DNA from: Roseobacter sp.
Lineage (GTDB): Bacteria > Pseudomonadota > Alphaproteobacteria > Rhodobacterales > Rhodobacteraceae
Length of the DNA stretch: 39,216 nt
NCBI GenBank assembly: GCA_024636425.1
Contig: JAGXHB010000205.1
Span: 1 to 39,216, forward strand
Direction: 5' to 3'
The translations under genes were made by a program, and so were the position numbers. This document shows positions 1 to 25,888 of this stretch, piece after piece. The notes beneath the pieces were generated by a model. That model made no database searches, was not told where the DNA came from, and saw nothing but the letters and a program-made list of their open reading frames with translations. Numbering within the stretch: the first letter of the stretch is position 1; each line of letters begins with the position of its first letter.

Positions 1-59
1 ACCTGCGCCAAAACCTCTATCCGATTCAACTCGCGCTCGCTCATCATCACCCATCCCAT
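1..59 (-). pseudogene. N-terminus of an ISNCY-like transposase, running off the window edge
   Basis: Reverse-strand ATG at 59 gives MGWVMMSERELNRIEVLAQ, resembling the N-terminal motif (M[ST]ERELxRIEVL) of ISNCY-type transposases. Completeness cannot be judged. Confidence 0.55.
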
Positions 60-212
60 GTCCAATCTCCCATTGCTCATTTGAACAAGAGAGTGACACT
101 TCTGCTTTGCTTAGGGGTGACATTATCGCTTTGCGGCTACACAAGTTGTTTTCCCATAAGGTTAATTATGTATTATTATGAATGGGTGGGCTACGATAAG
201 AGGCCGACCCGA

Positions 213-340
213 TCATAACCCCAACGCGTAACCCGCGCCGCGCACCGTTCCAATTCGGTCCGATCAGCCGTGAACCTTCAATGCCTTGCGCAACCGCGCG
301 ATGTGCACGTCCGCGGTGCGCGTGTCGACATAGATATAGC
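213..340 (-). pseudogene. C-terminal remnant of a PhoB/OmpR-type response regulator
   Basis: Reverse-strand reading [40 protein letters not shown]. The DNA-binding winged-helix motif is recognisable and carries one in-frame TGA. Confidence 0.6.
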
Positions 341-519
341 AGCAACGCGACGTACATCGGTCGGTGGCCGAATTGGAAGCCGACATTATGGCCTTCATCG
401 ACGCACACAACGATGACCCAAAGCCATACAAATGGGTCAAATCGGCTAATGAAATCCTCGCTTCCGTGAAACGCTTCTGCCTCAAAACAATGAACCGCAC
501 TTCGATTCCGGGTGATTAG
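340..519 (+). pseudogene. C-terminal remnant of an IS630-family transposase
   Basis: Frame reads QQRDVHRSVAELEADIMAFIDAHNDDPKPYKWVKSANEILASVKRFCLKTMNRTSIPGD*, the typical IS630 transposase C-terminus. An in-frame TAG lies immediately upstream. Confidence 0.75.
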
Positions 520-610
520 AGCGTTTCGACATTTCCGCAAGCACTAAGCGCTTGGCCCGATATGTTACTTCCGTCCGGGGAACACAGGAACAGCACCTTA
601 GCCACCACAT

Positions 611-905
611 CTTCGGGCACACAAAGGGCTCAACAACCGCATAGAGGGTTCGCATCGGCCGCCCCGCAAACGAGAGAAGGTCATGGGTCGGTTCAAATCG
701 ATCCGACAGACGCAAAGGTTCCTCGTGGCCCACGATCAAATCAACACAATGTTTAGGCACCGCCGCTACCGCCTCTCCAACGTCTCATACCGCCTCGCAA
801 GGTCCGATGCCTTCGACCTGCGGCACGGTTATGCGCTCGAAATGACGGCCTGAAAAATCACACTTGGCGACCTTCACAGGTCAGTGTCGTTAAGTTGGCA
901 ATACC
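611..905 (+). mobile_element. 3' remnant of an IS6-family element (transposase C-terminus plus right terminal repeat)
   Basis: 611-853 reads LRAHKGLNNRIEGSHRPPRKREKVMGRFKSIRQTQRFLVAHDQINTMFRHRRYRLSNVSYRLARSDAFDLRHGYALEMTA*, which aligns with the C-terminus of the intact IS6 transposase at 25118-25837. About 50 bp after the stop, 'aagttggcaatacc' (to 905) resembles the terminal repeat of the intact copy. Confidence 0.8.
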
Positions 906-986
906 GGATCGCGACCTCTGAATAAGGGCGGCCCAAAAACCCATGCTTTGGACCGAAATTGACGCTCTCTCCTTTGAGCAGTTACC

Positions 987-1493
987 TCACTGGCCCAGAC
1001 GAACTGCGACAACTTCAATCTCGACAAGCCAAGATGGGTTTGCCAGACCCGCTACCTCGAAGACAGAACGGGTAGGCAGATCTGGTTGGTCCTCGGTGCC
1101 AAAAAACTGCGTATAGCCGTCCATAAAGCCTTGAAAATCCATAGCATCCTCCCCTTCTGGTGCGACGAGATAAGCCTGCATTTTGACTACATCCCCCATA
1201 TCAAGGTCGATCGCAGCGAGTTTTCTCTTGATCGCAGCGAGCACACTTTCGGACTGGGCGGCGGTGTCACCAAACTGTTCGGGCGACCCACTTTCCGCAC
1301 TATCGTCAATCACCTCCGGCACAGTGCCACTTAGGTAAACCAATGTTGCATCCGCAGGAATTTCGACAGCTTGCAGAATCGGGAAATCAGAATCCGGCAA
1401 CCCATGACGGACCACCTCTGAACTCTGAGCGAAGGCTCCCGCTGCGGAAAGCGTCAGCGCAGCGGCGAGGGGGGAGAGCATTTTGTGGATCAT
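987..1493 (-). CDS. RidA (YjgF/YER057c/UK114) family protein with N-terminal signal peptide
   Basis: MIHKMLSPLAAALTLSAAGAFAQSS... is Sec-signal-like. The remainder has a RidA-like pattern (LVYLSGTVPE...AAIKRKLAAIDLDMGDVVKMQAYLV...PTRSVFEVAGLANPSWLVEIEVVAV). ATGA overlap with the upstream cytochrome gene. Confidence 0.85.
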   Translation of the reverse strand: MIHKMLSPLAAALTLSAAGAFAQSSEVVRHGLPDSDFPILQAVEIPADATLVYLSGTVPEVIDDSAESGSPEQFGDTAAQSESVLAAIKRKLAAIDLDMGDVVKMQAYLVAPEGEDAMDFQGFMDGYTQFFGTEDQPDLPTRSVFEVAGLANPSWLVEIEVVAVRLGQ

Positions 1494-2011
1494 TCGTGTT
1501 CCTCCGTATTTTGGTTTACTGGTTCAGCGGGGCGAATACCCGCAACTGCTTCGACCGTCCCATCCGGGTCGTAATCGTTATCTAGGTTTGTCTGAAGGTA
1601 ATCGGTGATGGCAACCACCTGTTCATCATCAAGGAAATGCCCAAGGCTCGGCATTGCTTTCTGCCCGTTGACGATGATGTACGTTGCATAGCCAGCATAT
1701 TCGAGGTTAGGGTTATCTCTCAGTGCCGGATATGCTCCCGCACCGACAGCGCCCGCCCCATCAGTCATATGACAACCGGAACATAGCGACTGGTACAATT
1801 CTTCTCCATCGCTGCTGGTATATTCCTGAACCCATTCTTCACCACCGTCGGCCATCTCGGTCAGGTCACGTTCTTGAGGCCGTGCTTCGGTTTGCGACTG
1901 CTCTGCGGATGACGTCGTTTGACCGGTATCGGAGGGATCGCTGGTTTGTGCCCAGACAGGTTGAGTGCTGAGGGCGCACAGTACTAAAGTTGTGATAAAT
2001 TTCTGTCGCAT
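1490..2011 (-). CDS. exported c-type cytochrome
   Basis: Signal peptide MRQKFITTLVLCALSTQPVWAQ; haem motif CSGCH followed by MTDGAGAVGAGAYPALRDNP; likely Met ligand region QKAMPSLG. Confidence 0.88.
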   Translation of the reverse strand: MRQKFITTLVLCALSTQPVWAQTSDPSDTGQTTSSAEQSQTEARPQERDLTEMADGGEEWVQEYTSSDGEELYQSLCSGCHMTDGAGAVGAGAYPALRDNPNLEYAGYATYIIVNGQKAMPSLGHFLDDEQVVAITDYLQTNLDNDYDPDGTVEAVAGIRPAEPVNQNTEEHE

Positions 2012-2015
2012 TGCT

Positions 2016-3587
2016 TCACCCGTTGATTACCTTGTCATGGAGACGCGAGATTGCGTCGAGGGAAGAGAGAATCGCTCCTTCCTGCCACGCGGGCAGATAG
2101 GACAGATGCTCGCCCGCGCAGACCACGCGGTTATCGATCTTGACCGCTTCATCGTAGTTTTCGCGGTTTTCCCAGACGCCGGAACAGCCGAGAACCCATG
2201 GCACCTTGTGCCAGGCCACACTGACCCCGGTCTTGAATTCCTCCCGATACTGGGGATGGATTTTTTCGCCTTGGCGTAGCGCCCATTCCAGCCGCTCATC
2301 AGGCTGCATTGCGTTGAACTTATAGCTGTTCTCACCACGCCATGTGTACCCGCCCAAAAGGACACCGGGTCCGTCCGACAAATAGCCGGTTGAAGGGTAA
2401 CTGATCTGGCTGATCGCCTGATCGGTATAGCTTATCCCGCCATAGATGTTCTCGTCCTCTTCCCAGAAACGGCGCTTGAACTCCAAGCCCCATTTCGTGG
2501 AGCCGTTATAGTACATCGTGCTGATCGTATCCGCCAAACCACCCGAAAGGTTATGGTCGATCTGTCCAAGGACCGAGAAAGGGATGGTGCAAACGCAATA
2601 GTCCGCGGTACTTGTCTGCGTTCCGCCATCACTGGTATTTTCCCACGTGACGGTTACACCGTTCTCATCTTGCTGCAACGAGACAACTTTTGCGTTGTAT
2701 GTAATGAGATCCCCAACCTCACGCTCAAAACCTCTTGCAATTCCGTCCATGCCACCAACCGGCTGGAACATGGGCGCTTGATGGTCGACAGTCTCGTGCG
2801 TCGCAAGATATTCCCACAGGCGCGACTGGACGATTTGTTGAGGATCAAGCAGGTCGGATGCTTCAGGTTCAGCACCGACACCGCCGCCCGGTTGCTTGCC
2901 ATAACCGCGATAAACGCTTGTTTCCAAGCTTTTCACATATTCATTCTGCTCGTTGAGAGCACCAAAGCTGCGCAGGCTCTCGATCAAGACCTCGCGATCA
3001 TCGCTGCTGACCAGCTTATCAAGATCCCCTTGATTGATCCCTTTGGCCAGCAATTCCGAGACATGGCCGCGATAGTCGCTTTTGATATGGCGCAGGCGTT
3101 GAGGTTTGCCGTCAAAGGCATCGGATTTATGGAGGTAGGAGTTGTAATTCAACTGAATGAAAGGCTCCAGCGGTACTTTCAGCCGTTTGCAATAGTCCAG
3201 CACCGCGTGGTGATCATGCGGCAGGCGCCATGGGCCGGGATTGATGTAATTGCCTTCGGCAAAATCGACATTCTGTGTCGCCCCGCCAAGCTCGGTGAAG
3301 CTGTCACCGGAACGCAGTGTCCAACACCTGCCACCTACCTTTTCGCGAAACTCCAGTACTTCGACCTCGTAGCCAGCAGCGCGCATTTCATAGGCCGCCG
3401 TCAAACCAGCTAGGCCAGCTCCTAGAACAAGCACTTTCGCACCCTGGGGATCGCCATCCAGTTTGATTGGCCCACTGTAGTCGGAGGGTGCCGCATACCC
3501 CATTGACGTCATTGCATGATACATGGCGGTACTACCCGCCGTTGCCCCGATCATGGTCAGTAAGTTTCGGCGTGTGAATTCTGTCAT
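2016..3587 (-). CDS. FAD-dependent amine oxidase/dehydrogenase with Tat-type leader
   Basis: Internal ATG at 3587 gives MTEFTRRNLLTMIGATAGS (twin-arginine). Dinucleotide-binding motif VLVLGAGLAGLTAAYEMRAAGYEVEVLE and C-terminal WQEGAILSSLDAISRL are typical of the flavin amine oxidase family. The ORF track extends to 3656. Confidence 0.85.
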   Translation of the reverse strand: MTEFTRRNLLTMIGATAGSTAMYHAMTSMGYAAPSDYSGPIKLDGDPQGAKVLVLGAGLAGLTAAYEMRAAGYEVEVLEFREKVGGRCWTLRSGDSFTELGGATQNVDFAEGNYINPGPWRLPHDHHAVLDYCKRLKVPLEPFIQLNYNSYLHKSDAFDGKPQRLRHIKSDYRGHVSELLAKGINQGDLDKLVSSDDREVLIESLRSFGALNEQNEYVKSLETSVYRGYGKQPGGGVGAEPEASDLLDPQQIVQSRLWEYLATHETVDHQAPMFQPVGGMDGIARGFEREVGDLITYNAKVVSLQQDENGVTVTWENTSDGGTQTSTADYCVCTIPFSVLGQIDHNLSGGLADTISTMYYNGSTKWGLEFKRRFWEEDENIYGGISYTDQAISQISYPSTGYLSDGPGVLLGGYTWRGENSYKFNAMQPDERLEWALRQGEKIHPQYREEFKTGVSVAWHKVPWVLGCSGVWENRENYDEAVKIDNRVVCAGEHLSYLPAWQEGAILSSLDAISRLHDKVING

Positions 3588-3888
3588 TGGAAGCCCTCTG
3601 CTGCGAAATATCGTGCGCACCAAAAATCTAGGTACTAGCGCCGAAAGCGCACCCACCGGATTAAAGCGCCTAACGGTTTAACCTGCGCGTCAGGCTTATG
3701 TTCCAATGAAACACTGCGGATCGGTGGGAGACCGATAAGCTAAGAAAAGCTTCTTGCTATGATACAAACTGACTATTGCTAATCTTATCAAGTCTTTGCG
3801 CGCGTGGTGTTTGAGATGGCATGGTTTACCACGCATGAGAAACCTGACCCCACGACTTCATTATGGGGTAAAGTCTTTGGGTTAGACC

Positions 3889-4854
3889 CTAAAAATCCAC
3901 CTCGATCGCGATCTTTTGCGCAACAGCCATATCAACAACCGCCGCCGCAACAGCCAGATCCTGCAAGCCCACGCCGGTCCCGTCAAAGAGCGTAATCTGA
4001 TCGGCGCTGATCCGCCCCGCATGGGTCCCGTTTATCACCGCCCCAAGCTGGTGCACATCGCTTTGTGCAATCAGCCCTGCCGCCACCGCATGCTGTGCCT
4101 CGCCGATCGACACCGATTGCGCGACCTCGTCGGTAAAGACCGTCGCCTGCGCCAGAAGCGCCGCCTCGACCTCTTGCTTGCCTTTGGTGTCGGTGCCCAT
4201 GCACGCCAGATGACAGCCCGGCGCCACATGATCGGCCATCAACGACGGGGAAAATGCCGAGGTGATGGAAATGATCACATCCGCCTCGATCATGTCGGGC
4301 AGATCGACCGGCTGAAACGGGATGCCCGCCTCATTGGCGATCTTCTCGATGTTGGGCAGCATTTCAGGATGATAGTTCCAGCCGATTACTTTCGTGAATT
4401 CCCCCTGCTCCAGTGCCGCGCGCAGCTGGAACGTTGCCTGATGGCCCGCCCCCACCATGCCGATCACCCGCGCATCCTTGCGCGCCAGATGTTTGATCGA
4501 CACGGATGACGCCGCCGCCGTGCGCAGGGCGGTCAACAGATTGCCGCCCACCATCGCCCGTACCTTGCCCGTATCGGGATCGAATAGAAACACCGTGGAC
4601 TGGTGATTGATCAGGTCACGCTTTTCCAGGTTGTTCGGCCAATAGCCGCCCGCCTTCAACCCAAGCGTCAGCCCCGCGCGATCAAACCCGCCCTTGAAGC
4701 CATACAGGGCATCCTCGTGGCCGATCGCCTCGCGCACGACGGGAAAGTTATAGGCATCCCCCGCCGCCATGGCGGCAAATACCTGTTCGACGGCATCAAA
4801 AGCAGCGGCGCGGGTCATCAAGTTGGCGATTTCGCATTCAGGGACGATTAGCAT
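3889..4854 (-). CDS. bhcD: iminosuccinate reductase (ornithine cyclodeaminase/mu-crystallin family)
   Basis: Ornithine cyclodeaminase-family sequence (GGNLLTALRTAAASSVSIKHLARKDARVIGMVGAGHQA) as the last gene of a bhcABCD-ordered set. Confidence 0.88.
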   Translation of the reverse strand: MLIVPECEIANLMTRAAAFDAVEQVFAAMAAGDAYNFPVVREAIGHEDALYGFKGGFDRAGLTLGLKAGGYWPNNLEKRDLINHQSTVFLFDPDTGKVRAMVGGNLLTALRTAAASSVSIKHLARKDARVIGMVGAGHQATFQLRAALEQGEFTKVIGWNYHPEMLPNIEKIANEAGIPFQPVDLPDMIEADVIISITSAFSPSLMADHVAPGCHLACMGTDTKGKQEVEAALLAQATVFTDEVAQSVSIGEAQHAVAAGLIAQSDVHQLGAVINGTHAGRISADQITLFDGTGVGLQDLAVAAAVVDMAVAQKIAIEVDF

Positions 4855-4917
4855 TTGGGGGGACTCCGGTCAGTAAGGGATGTGAAGGCGACCGGTTGCC
4901 GCCTTCAACAGATGGTA

Positions 4918-6081
4918 TCAATAGGCCTTTCCGCGCGCCGACACGGGCCACAGGGTTTCAACCTTGTCGCCGCGCACACCGACGTACCAGTCATGCACAT
5001 TGGCAGTTGGATCGCAGTGCCCCGGCACGAGCCGCAACTTATCGCCGACTTTCAGCACGCCATCGGGGTCCGACACCACGCCGTGTTCATCGGAACATTT
5101 GGCGTACTCCACATCAGTGCGGCCAAAGATCACCGGCAACCCGCTGTCGACCGACTGCACCTTCAGGCCCGCATCCACAATCGCCTTGTCAGCCTTGGCG
5201 TGGCTCATGACCTGCGTGAGGATAAAGAACGCGTTTTCCCATTCACCCTGGTCAATCCGCTGGCCTTTGTCGTCCAGTATCCGGCCATAGTCGGCATCCA
5301 TAAATGCATAGGACCCGCATTGCAGTTCGTTATAAACGCCCGAATTAGCCTCAAAGTAATAGCTGCCCGTGCCACCGCCCGAGACCAGATCGCAAGTGAT
5401 CCCTTGCGCCGCCAACCCGTCAACCGCGTCCTTCACCTGCGCGATTGCGATGTCGAGCTTGGCCTTGCGGTCATCAAAGCTGTTCAGATGTTGCATCGCA
5501 CCCTGATAGGCCTGAATCCCCGTAAACTTCAGCCCCTCCGCCGCCTGCACAGCCTTGGCGATCTCGATCACGGCGTCCGTTGTCGTCACGCCGCAACGGC
5601 CCGCGCCGCAATCGATCTCGATCAGCACTTCGATCTGGGTGCCATGCTTGACCGCCGCGGCCGATAATTCAGCCACATTCGCCACATCATCGACACAGAC
5701 GATTGTGCGGGCCCCGAACTTGGGCAGCCGTGCCACCCGGTCGATCTTGGCGGCGTCCCGGACCTGGTTCGAGACCAGAATATCCTTGATCCCGCCCCGT
5801 GCGAACACCTCGGCCTCGGACACCTTCTGACAGCAGACCCCAACGGCCCCGCCCAGCCGTTCCTGCAGCTTGGCCACATCGACCGACTTGTGCATCTTGC
5901 CGTGCACACGGTGGCGCATCCCGTGCGCCCTGGCATAGTCGCCCATCTTGACAATGTTGCGTTCAAGCGCATCCAGATCCAGCACAAGGCAGGGCGTCTG
6001 AATGTCGGCGGCATCCATGCCAGGCAGCGCTGGCACGTCATAGCCCACTTCGAGGCCGTCAAAGTTAACAGGTGCGTTCAT
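4918..6081 (-). CDS. bhcC: beta-hydroxyaspartate aldolase (DSD1/D-threonine aldolase-like)
   Basis: Start MNAPVNFDGLEVGYDVPALPGMDAADIQTPCLVLDLDALERNI at 6081, giving 387 aa. Alanine racemase N-terminal-type PLP fold motif (HRVHGKMHKSVDVAKLQ). Context between bhcB and bhcD. Confidence 0.9.
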   Translation of the reverse strand: MNAPVNFDGLEVGYDVPALPGMDAADIQTPCLVLDLDALERNIVKMGDYARAHGMRHRVHGKMHKSVDVAKLQERLGGAVGVCCQKVSEAEVFARGGIKDILVSNQVRDAAKIDRVARLPKFGARTIVCVDDVANVAELSAAAVKHGTQIEVLIEIDCGAGRCGVTTTDAVIEIAKAVQAAEGLKFTGIQAYQGAMQHLNSFDDRKAKLDIAIAQVKDAVDGLAAQGITCDLVSGGGTGSYYFEANSGVYNELQCGSYAFMDADYGRILDDKGQRIDQGEWENAFFILTQVMSHAKADKAIVDAGLKVQSVDSGLPVIFGRTDVEYAKCSDEHGVVSDPDGVLKVGDKLRLVPGHCDPTANVHDWYVGVRGDKVETLWPVSARGKAY

Positions 6082-6094
6082 GGTTTTGGCTCCT

Positions 6095-7063
6095 TCAATT
6101 GGACCACGGCAGGGCGTCAAGATCGACGTTCCCACCGGTGATGATGATTCCGACCCGCTTGCCCGCGAACCGGTCCTTGTTTGCAAGGATGGTGGCGAGA
6201 GGCACAGCGCTGCTGGCCTCCATCACGATTTTCATACGCTTCCACGTCAGTTTCATGGCCTCCACGATCTGATCTTCGGATGCGGTCAGAATGTCGCTGA
6301 CGTGGTTCGACACGAAATGCCATGTCAGATCCTTCAGGGGCACCTTCAGCCCGTCAGCAATCGTTTCGGGGGCGTCGTCGGCGATGATATGACCGGCGTG
6401 GTAGCTGCGCGCGGCATCGTCGGCCTGTTCCGGCTCGGCGGCAATGATCTGCACCTCTGGTGCCAGATGTGACAACGTCAGGCAGGTGCCAGAGATCATG
6501 CCACCGCCGCCGATAGGGGCCATGACAATATCCAACCCGTCCGTCTGTTCCATCATTTCGCGCGAACAGGTGCCCTGCCCCGCGATCACCCGCGGATCAT
6601 TGTAGGGATGCACAAAATCACCCCTTGTGCGCGCCTGCACCTCGGCAAAGACTGCCTCGCGCGATGTGGTGGACGGGTCGCATTCGGTAATCACGCCGCC
6701 ATATCCGCGCACCGCGTCCTTTTTCGCCTGCGGCGCCGTACGTGGCATTACCACGTTGCACGGGATGCCCCGCCGCCCTGCCGCATAGCTTAACGATAGT
6801 GCGTGGTTACCCGAAGAATGAGTGCAAACGCCGAACTCGACATCGGCCTCGGACAAACCGAACACCGCGTTCGACGCACCGCGCACCTTGAACGCTCCGG
6901 CCTTTTGAAAGTTCTCGCATTTGAAAAACAATTGCGCGCCGGTCAATTCGTTCAGGAACGACGAGGTCAGAACGGGCGTGCGATGGATATATGGCGCAAT
7001 CCGGTCCTGCGCCGCCAGTACGTCGTCAAAGGTCGGGATATACATGGCCGTATCCTTCATCAC
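6095..7063 (-). CDS. bhcB: beta-hydroxyaspartate dehydratase (threonine/serine dehydratase family)
   Basis: PLP motif KCENFQKAGAFKVRGASNAV and GGGGMISG loop; 322 aa; ATGA overlap with bhcA. Confidence 0.9.
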   Translation of the reverse strand: MMKDTAMYIPTFDDVLAAQDRIAPYIHRTPVLTSSFLNELTGAQLFFKCENFQKAGAFKVRGASNAVFGLSEADVEFGVCTHSSGNHALSLSYAAGRRGIPCNVVMPRTAPQAKKDAVRGYGGVITECDPSTTSREAVFAEVQARTRGDFVHPYNDPRVIAGQGTCSREMMEQTDGLDIVMAPIGGGGMISGTCLTLSHLAPEVQIIAAEPEQADDAARSYHAGHIIADDAPETIADGLKVPLKDLTWHFVSNHVSDILTASEDQIVEAMKLTWKRMKIVMEASSAVPLATILANKDRFAGKRVGIIITGGNVDLDALPWSN

Positions 7064-25077: not shown

Positions 25078-25888
25078 GGGGTATTGCCAAGTTGTTGACG
25101 GGGTTTGCTAAAGGTATGTGGACCCCATGAATATTCCAATTGATTTGCCACGCCTGAAGGGCTTTCGTTATCCTCGTGAGATTATTGCTTACGCTGTTTG
25201 GGCGTACCACCGGTTAGCTCTGAGCACGGCTGATGTTGAAGACCTGTTGGCCGCGCGGAGCGTGATTGTCAGCCGAGAAGCGATCCGACTTTGGGTCAAT
25301 CGCTTTGGTCAACACTTTGCAAATTGCATTCGCCGGGATCGACCACGGCCGAACAACAAGTGGCACATGGATGAAGTCGTGATCACGATCCGTGGCAAGA
25401 AACATTGGCTGTGGCGTGCGATCGACGCGGATGGAGACGTCCTCGATATTCTCGTGCAAACACGCCGCAACGCCAAATCAGCAAAGCGCTTTTTACAAAG
25501 ATTAGTTTCACAGTTTGGCGAGCCGAGGGTGGTCATAACTGACAAGTTGCGTAGCTATATCAAGCCGGTTAAAACACTGACCCCGAACGCTTACCATCAC
25601 GCGCACAAGGGCTTGAACAACGCGATCGAAGTGTCGCACCGGCCGACACGTAAACGAGAGAAGATCTTCGGCAAATTCAAATCCCACCGGCAGGCCCATA
25701 GGTTTTTGGCCGCACATGACCAGATCAACTTGCTCTTCCGTCCCCGCCGCTATCAACTGAACGCAACTTCATACCGCCACGCCCGCTCCGATGCTTTCAG
25801 CCTCTGGGCAGATTACACCGCGGAAATGGTGGCATGATCCTGCCTATGCCAAGCTTCACAAGCTGATGCCAACAACTTGGCAATACCC
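25078..25888 (+). mobile_element. intact IS6-family insertion sequence (about 811 bp)
   Basis: 19-bp perfect terminal inverted repeats gggtattgccaagttgttg (25078-25096) and caacaacttggcaataccc (25870-25888) bracket an IS6-type transposase. No matching 8-bp target duplication (flanks ggggcttg and acgcagca). Confidence 0.92.
25118..25837 (+). CDS. IS6-family transposase
   Basis: 239 aa; FRYPREIIAYAVWAYHRLALSTADVEDLLAARSVIVSREAIRLWV...WHMDEVVITIRGKKHWLWRAIDADGDVLDILVQTRRNAKSAKRF...HKGLNNAIEVSHRPTRKRE, a complete DDE-type IS6 transposase. Confidence 0.95.
   Translation: MDPMNIPIDLPRLKGFRYPREIIAYAVWAYHRLALSTADVEDLLAARSVIVSREAIRLWVNRFGQHFANCIRRDRPRPNNKWHMDEVVITIRGKKHWLWRAIDADGDVLDILVQTRRNAKSAKRFLQRLVSQFGEPRVVITDKLRSYIKPVKTLTPNAYHHAHKGLNNAIEVSHRPTRKREKIFGKFKSHRQAHRFLAAHDQINLLFRPRRYQLNATSYRHARSDAFSLWADYTAEMVA

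Follow-up and report, generated by a model that had tools for sequence, protein, structure and literature searches.

A gene cluster of the form lao-cccA-ridA was described by Rodrigues et al. in 2016 in Gluconacetobacter diazotrophicus PAL5, where it consists of GDI2456, GDI2455 and GDI2454 (PMC5053998). The lao product has a twin-arginine (Tat) leader and is a close match to the L-amino-acid oxidase (LAAO) of R. opacus. Transposon mutants of lao made no auxin (IAA) and had lowered transcripts of all three genes, while ccm mutants retained 5% of IAA. The cytochrome c and RidA were suggested to work with the enzyme, and the cluster was also reported in Caulobacter and Xanthomonas (PMC5053998).

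A second group of described systems comes from flavin amine oxidoreductases, for which a Tat leader together with an adjacent cytochrome c predicts cytochrome use, as shown by stopped flow in 2025 (PMC12224317). That set was made up of hits to NicA2, amino acid oxidases are absent from its text, and for one enzyme with a cytochrome gene next to it O2 served about as well as the cytochrome. In Chlamydomonas, LAO1 with its LAO2/RidA partner makes H2O2, and the cluster was described without a cytochrome (PMC10805672). A paper of 2015 had already remarked on Rid genes clustered with those for FAD amine oxidases (PMC4433059). The Rid3 proteins PSPTO_3006 and PFL_1385 hydrolyse in vitro the imines that an LAAO makes from Leu, Gln, Phe, Met and His (PMC5619798).

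Layout of the locus

The window, i.e. the whole stretch of 39,216 nucleotides from Roseobacter sp. that was analysed, contains three tightly packed genes at 987-3587 on the minus strand (Table 1). Its host is a marine bacterium, apparently a Sulfitobacter. The cytochrome c gene comes after the flavoenzyme gene, from which it is separated by 4 nt (2012-2015), and the Rid gene, overlapping the cytochrome gene by 4 nt (1490-1493), is last. The position, gap and overlap agree with the original prediction, as does an export signal on each product, judged by eye. The flavoenzyme begins with MTEFTRRNLLTMIG, a twin-arginine leader in which TRRNLLT occupies residues 5-11; the cytochrome has the Sec-type leader MRQKFITTLVLCALSTQPVWA and the haem site CSGCH; and the Rid protein has the Sec-type leader MIHKMLSPLAAALTLSAAGAFA. 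Pfam also names the cytochrome gene Cytochrom_C. In a scan of the locus for promoters and terminators, hits were no commoner than in shuffled sequences.

With an adjacent, co-oriented LAAO, cytochrome c and Rid, a Tat leader and 2jae as nearest structure, the locus belongs to the lao-cccA-ridA type. It also has the gene pattern of the cytochrome-using dehydrogenases, namely a Tat leader on the flavoenzyme and an adjacent Sec-exported cytochrome c. The system had been put forward as a candidate undescribed one, which we can no longer maintain: the cluster and its Tat leader are already in the 2016 paper, which proposes the same parts for cytochrome and RidA (PMC5053998), and Tat-exported, cytochrome-c-using enzymes of the superfamily are an established class (PMC12224317). 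What is new here is the comparative support, consisting of a cytochrome fixed in 104 LAAOs, oxidase operons at two loci and four gene fusions.

Table 1. Genes of the locus, related arrangements elsewhere and frequencies of the locus types (L numbers denote labelled loci).
Feature	Position	Strand	Loci	Remarks
FAD-dependent L-amino-acid oxidase/dehydrogenase (lao-like)	2016..3587	-		523 aa, Tat leader; Pfam Amino_oxidase 2.6e-54
Exported monohaem class I cytochrome c (cccA-like)	1490..2011	-		173 aa; Pfam Cytochrome_CBB3 2.1e-13
Exported Rid-family protein, Rid3-like, predicted imine deaminase	987..1493	-		168 aa; Pfam Ribonuc_L-PSP 8.2e-16
Cytochrome-Rid fusions	L043:7485-8660, L044:7554-8549, L060:7560-8492, L020:6801-7697	-		exported, adjoin LAAO gene
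LAAO-cytochrome pair + haem-copper oxidase operon	L176 (D. shibae pDSHI02) 1-7033; L027:8419-16289			
Type: enzyme + cytochrome c + Rid			92/132	
Type: enzyme + cytochrome			22/132	
Type: with added upstream cytochrome domains			6/132	
Type: with added haem-copper oxidase operon			2/132	
Type: Rid + diheme cytochrome			3/132	
Type: Rid alone			4/132	
Type: neither cytochrome nor Rid			3/132	

The flavoenzyme and its likely substrates

In a sequence search of solved structures, the closest match to the flavoenzyme was 2jae, the R. opacus LAAO (1.6e-86; about 35% identity over nearly the full length), followed by vertebrate LAAOs, while among amine oxidases of other kinds the best values were only about 6e-13. 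An AlphaFold model of moderate quality (mean pLDDT 68.6), built from 16 sequences and used for fold ranking rather than pocket geometry, gave the same order: 2jb1, the R. opacus LAAO with L-alanine, was the top match (7.2e-41), with NicA2 far lower (5ttk, 3.2e-19). Judged by this rank, the flavoenzyme probably falls outside the NicA2/Pnao clades of PMC12224317. Residues R6, R7, R121, K365 and W501 are invariant in an alignment of 16 Rhodobacterales homologues. Among them, R121 aligns with the arginine of GATRIPQS in the R. opacus enzyme, K365 is the flavin-side lysine and W501 the active-site tryptophan. The equivalent of R121 in the R. opacus structure is the residue that we take to bind the substrate carboxylate.

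Full-length similarity to LAAOs and the retained carboxylate arginine place the flavoenzyme, by sequence, in the L-amino-acid-oxidase branch and not among amine oxidases at large. This refines the label of FAD amine oxidase in the original prediction, and the substrate given there, an amine or amino acid, can be narrowed. On the basis of the LAAO matches, the fold rank of 2jb1 and the invariant R121, K365 and W501, the substrates are most likely L-alpha-amino acids; we infer several of them, possibly including aromatic ones such as tryptophan.

A narrower alternative is a tryptophan-specific enzyme making indolepyruvate for auxin signalling to algae or plants. It would differ in purpose, which would not be the general use of amino acids, and perhaps not in redox chemistry. 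The loss of IAA in the G. diazotrophicus lao mutants speaks for it, as does a close homologue (88%) on a plasmid of Sulfitobacter indolifex. Nevertheless, R. opacus-type LAAOs have a broad substrate range, nothing in the sequence points to a preference for tryptophan alone, the operon around the enzyme showed no genes for IAA, and a paper on IAA in Sulfitobacter mediterraneus names other routes (PMC12114110). We regard this alternative as improbable.

Conservation of the three genes

Searches recovered the enzyme from 17 of 395 genomes in the order (E <= 1e-40) and from 28 of 399 genomes sampled evenly across the phylum (E <= 1e-60). In the even phylum sample it occupies 29 places, of which 23 have a neighbouring cytochrome c and 14 the full triad. 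From a public genome collection the best 80 of 571 relatives were read, and these named loci are skewed toward close relatives. Altogether 132 LAAO loci were labelled, the window included, and their types are listed in Table 1; triheme or diheme cytochromes are present at some of the other loci. The recurrence of the enzyme, cytochrome c and Rid arrangement, at 92 of the 132 loci and 14 of the 29 phylum places, is not due to chance. Conservation beyond the source genome had been named as a test of the original prediction, and it was found to reach far.

In a tree of 114 enzymes (quick search, with SH-aLRT as the only support measure), a clade of 104 has SH-aLRT support of 98, and every one of its 104 members has an adjacent cytochrome c. 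The tree shows 2 state changes for the cytochrome and 17 for Rid, although the latter may be an overcount because short loci (4.5 kb) could hide Rid genes lying farther away. From this difference we take the cytochrome, not Rid, as the fixed partner. Some of the more distant homologues (L135-L137, L139-L141) have a Tat-like leader and often a Rid gene, with no cytochrome in the 1.5-kb flanks that were read. A comparison of 16 Rhodobacterales loci brought out no other gene, for instance for regulation or transport, as a conserved neighbour.

The cytochrome and its fusions with Rid

Residues C77, C80, H81 and M120 are identical in all 123 aligned cytochrome homologues, and the single CxxCH with a methionine ligand marks the protein as a class I monohaem cytochrome c. 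In four relatives, all Rhodobacterales (Oceanicola granulosus HTCC2516, two Sulfitobacter and a further genome, G246), the cytochrome and Rid form a single reading frame behind one leader, beside the LAAO gene. The fusions arose one to three times on the tree, and no published description of them was found among open-access papers. The haem of c-type cytochromes is attached outside the cytoplasm, which necessarily puts the Rid domain of a fusion there as well, and the four fusions suggest that the cytochrome and Rid share one compartment.

Two loci give a further clue to the electron path. On plasmid pDSHI02 of Dinoroseobacter shibae the LAAO-cytochrome pair comes after coxB, ctaD and a gene for oxidase assembly; in one genome of the same genus as the host the pair lies near the same oxidase gene set. 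Such a pair with its oxidase operon is possibly a dedicated amino-acid respiratory chain. Although only 67% complete, the host genome contains COX1 in two copies, TatC and the genes needed to assemble cytochrome c.

These observations bear on the simplest alternative, a conventional periplasmic L-amino-acid oxidase with O2 as acceptor, whose H2O2 would perhaps be an antimicrobial or a signal and whose cytochrome would remove H2O2 or serve otherwise. It draws on the fact that the nearest enzymes of known structure, the LAAOs of R. opacus and snakes, are oxidases, on the H2O2 made by Chlamydomonas LAO1 with its RidA partner, and on the tested enzyme with a neighbouring cytochrome that used both acceptors. 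However, it would be strange for a pure oxidase to keep a cytochrome throughout a clade of 104, haem-copper oxidase genes adjoin two loci, and CxxCH with a methionine ligand in 123 of 123 cytochromes points to an electron carrier more than to a peroxidase. We consider a conventional oxidase unlikely, but the most serious of the alternatives.

The Rid protein

The closest solved relatives of the Rid protein are 9bka (PSPTO3006, 1.1e-32) and 9bkc (PFL1385, 5.4e-26), with TdcF (1.1e-6) and YjgF (4.1e-5) following. R142, E158 and E160 are identical in 100 of 100 aligned Rid homologues. With Rid3 exemplars as its nearest relatives and the catalytic arginine R142 present, the protein is closer to the Rid3 subfamily than to the archetypal RidA that had been named.

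Neighbourhood and likely mobility

The genes bhcABCD of the beta-hydroxyaspartate cycle lie upstream in the direction of transcription, and all four pass NCBIfam cut-offs. The triad follows bhcD by about 300 bp on the same strand, which raises the alternative that it extends this cycle by supplying glyoxylate or amino groups to BhcABCD. Against this, bhc genes occur at none of the 125 other LAAO loci, bhcD of the same genus, where found, precedes other genes (in several genomes, by eye, a permease and ureide-type genes), and the triad differs in composition (GC 53-55% vs 60-62%; GC3 0.50-0.62 vs 0.73-0.77) and lies near a contig end and a transposase-like remnant. We reject a functional link to the cycle as very improbable; the adjacency is peculiar to the source genome and offers no functional clue.

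The remnant, at 360-520 of the window (plus strand), is a frame that by eye resembles the C-terminal end of an IS630-type transposase. A transposase with a DDE_Tnp_IS240 domain (IS6 type) is encoded at 25118-25837 (plus strand). Plasmids of Sulfitobacter faviae and S. indolifex carry near copies of the locus, and insertion sequences are found close to these. On a plasmid of Sulfitobacter sp. W074, a copy annotated in pieces (L175:6040-7119) covers 71% of the enzyme and is probably a broken gene. We regard the triad as most likely a mobile accessory module that the source genome has acquired.

The bhc genes themselves stand beside genes for purine catabolism (guanine deaminase, xanthine dehydrogenase and a PuuE-type allantoinase) at 3889-24037 of the window, and in relatives (L166, L169-L172) beside a permease and ureide-type genes, judged by eye. 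Glyoxylate is one possible product when purines are degraded, and this would account for the repeated association of these genes in the genus.

Proposed mechanism

We propose that the putative operon encodes a periplasmic L-amino-acid dehydrogenase module, with a probability of about 0.72. In this scheme, the Tat-exported flavoenzyme would take two electrons from an L-amino acid and release an imino acid. The reduced flavin would give its electrons one by one to the dedicated cytochrome c, and this in turn would reduce a terminal haem-copper oxidase. Energy could then be conserved, and H2O2 would form in small amounts at most. The Rid3-type protein, itself exported, would turn the imino acid into a 2-oxo acid and ammonium. 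The presumed benefit is that amino acids outside the cytoplasm become a source of nitrogen and energy, with 2-oxo acids such as indolepyruvate as by-products.

Comparison of loci lends support to the mechanism as originally predicted, that is, periplasmic oxidation, a dedicated cytochrome c as acceptor and imine hydrolysis by Rid. The adjacent cytochrome c throughout the clade argues for the dedicated acceptor, and the electron route from flavin through cytochrome c to oxidase, which we infer, is supported by the haem-copper oxidase genes beside two loci and the triheme and diheme cytochromes at others. For the Rid step, the support comes from the action of PSPTO_3006 and PFL_1385 on LAAO-made imines (PMC5619798). 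Precedents are the cytochrome use predicted from a Tat leader and a neighbouring cytochrome c in assayed enzymes (PMC12224317) and the IAA defects of the G. diazotrophicus lao and ccm mutants (PMC5053998); the COX1, TatC and cytochrome c assembly genes of the host also fit. Several points count against the mechanism: the R. opacus LAAO uses O2, one enzyme accepted both O2 and cytochrome (PMC12224317), some distant homologues have no cytochrome in the flanks read, the leaders were read by eye, and no assay of any member of the LAAO clade with its own cytochrome was found.

A wider proposition is that the LAAO clade is a lineage of L-amino-acid:cytochrome c dehydrogenases outside the tested NicA2-type clades, in which the cytochrome-Rid fusions handle both products of the active site and some species add a dedicated terminal oxidase. 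We regard the odds on it as even.

Significance

If the proposal is true, bacterial L-amino-acid oxidases with such a gene arrangement are misnamed, and the deamination of amino acids outside the cytoplasm would be coupled to respiration without much H2O2. Also, 2-oxo acids, for example the auxin precursor indolepyruvate, would be released where algae and plants can encounter them. Because the cytochrome partner is fixed and natural fusions exist, the proposal can be tested directly in cultured Sulfitobacter indolifex, Oceanicola granulosus and Paracoccus species.

Comparison with known systems

The G. diazotrophicus operon resembles the locus in its three genes, Tat leader, closest structure (R. 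opacus LAAO) and proposed partner roles, a likeness drawn from its published description. It differs in belonging to another lineage and in being tied by its mutants to tryptophan and IAA. The R. opacus LAAO itself (2jae, 2jb1) shares fold, branch and about a third of its residues with the window enzyme; unlike the enzyme proposed here it is an O2-using oxidase, and we know of no cytochrome partner for it.

Chlamydomonas LAO1 is likewise a periplasmic LAAO that attacks extracellular amino acids in concert with a Rid protein, but its product is H2O2 and a cytochrome is absent from the described cluster (PMC10805672). The Rid3 proteins PSPTO_3006 and PFL_1385 (9bka, 9bkc) are the nearest solved relatives of the Rid protein of the window, but they were studied as free proteins, apparently with no partner enzyme identified (PMC5619798). 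NicA2 and Pnao with CycN share with the locus a Tat-exported flavoenzyme beside a Sec-exported cytochrome c (PMC12224317, PMC9396064). Enzymes of that type act on amines or unknown substrates, whereas the window enzyme is of the LAAO branch and has a Rid partner; the oxidative half-reaction is probably the same in both.
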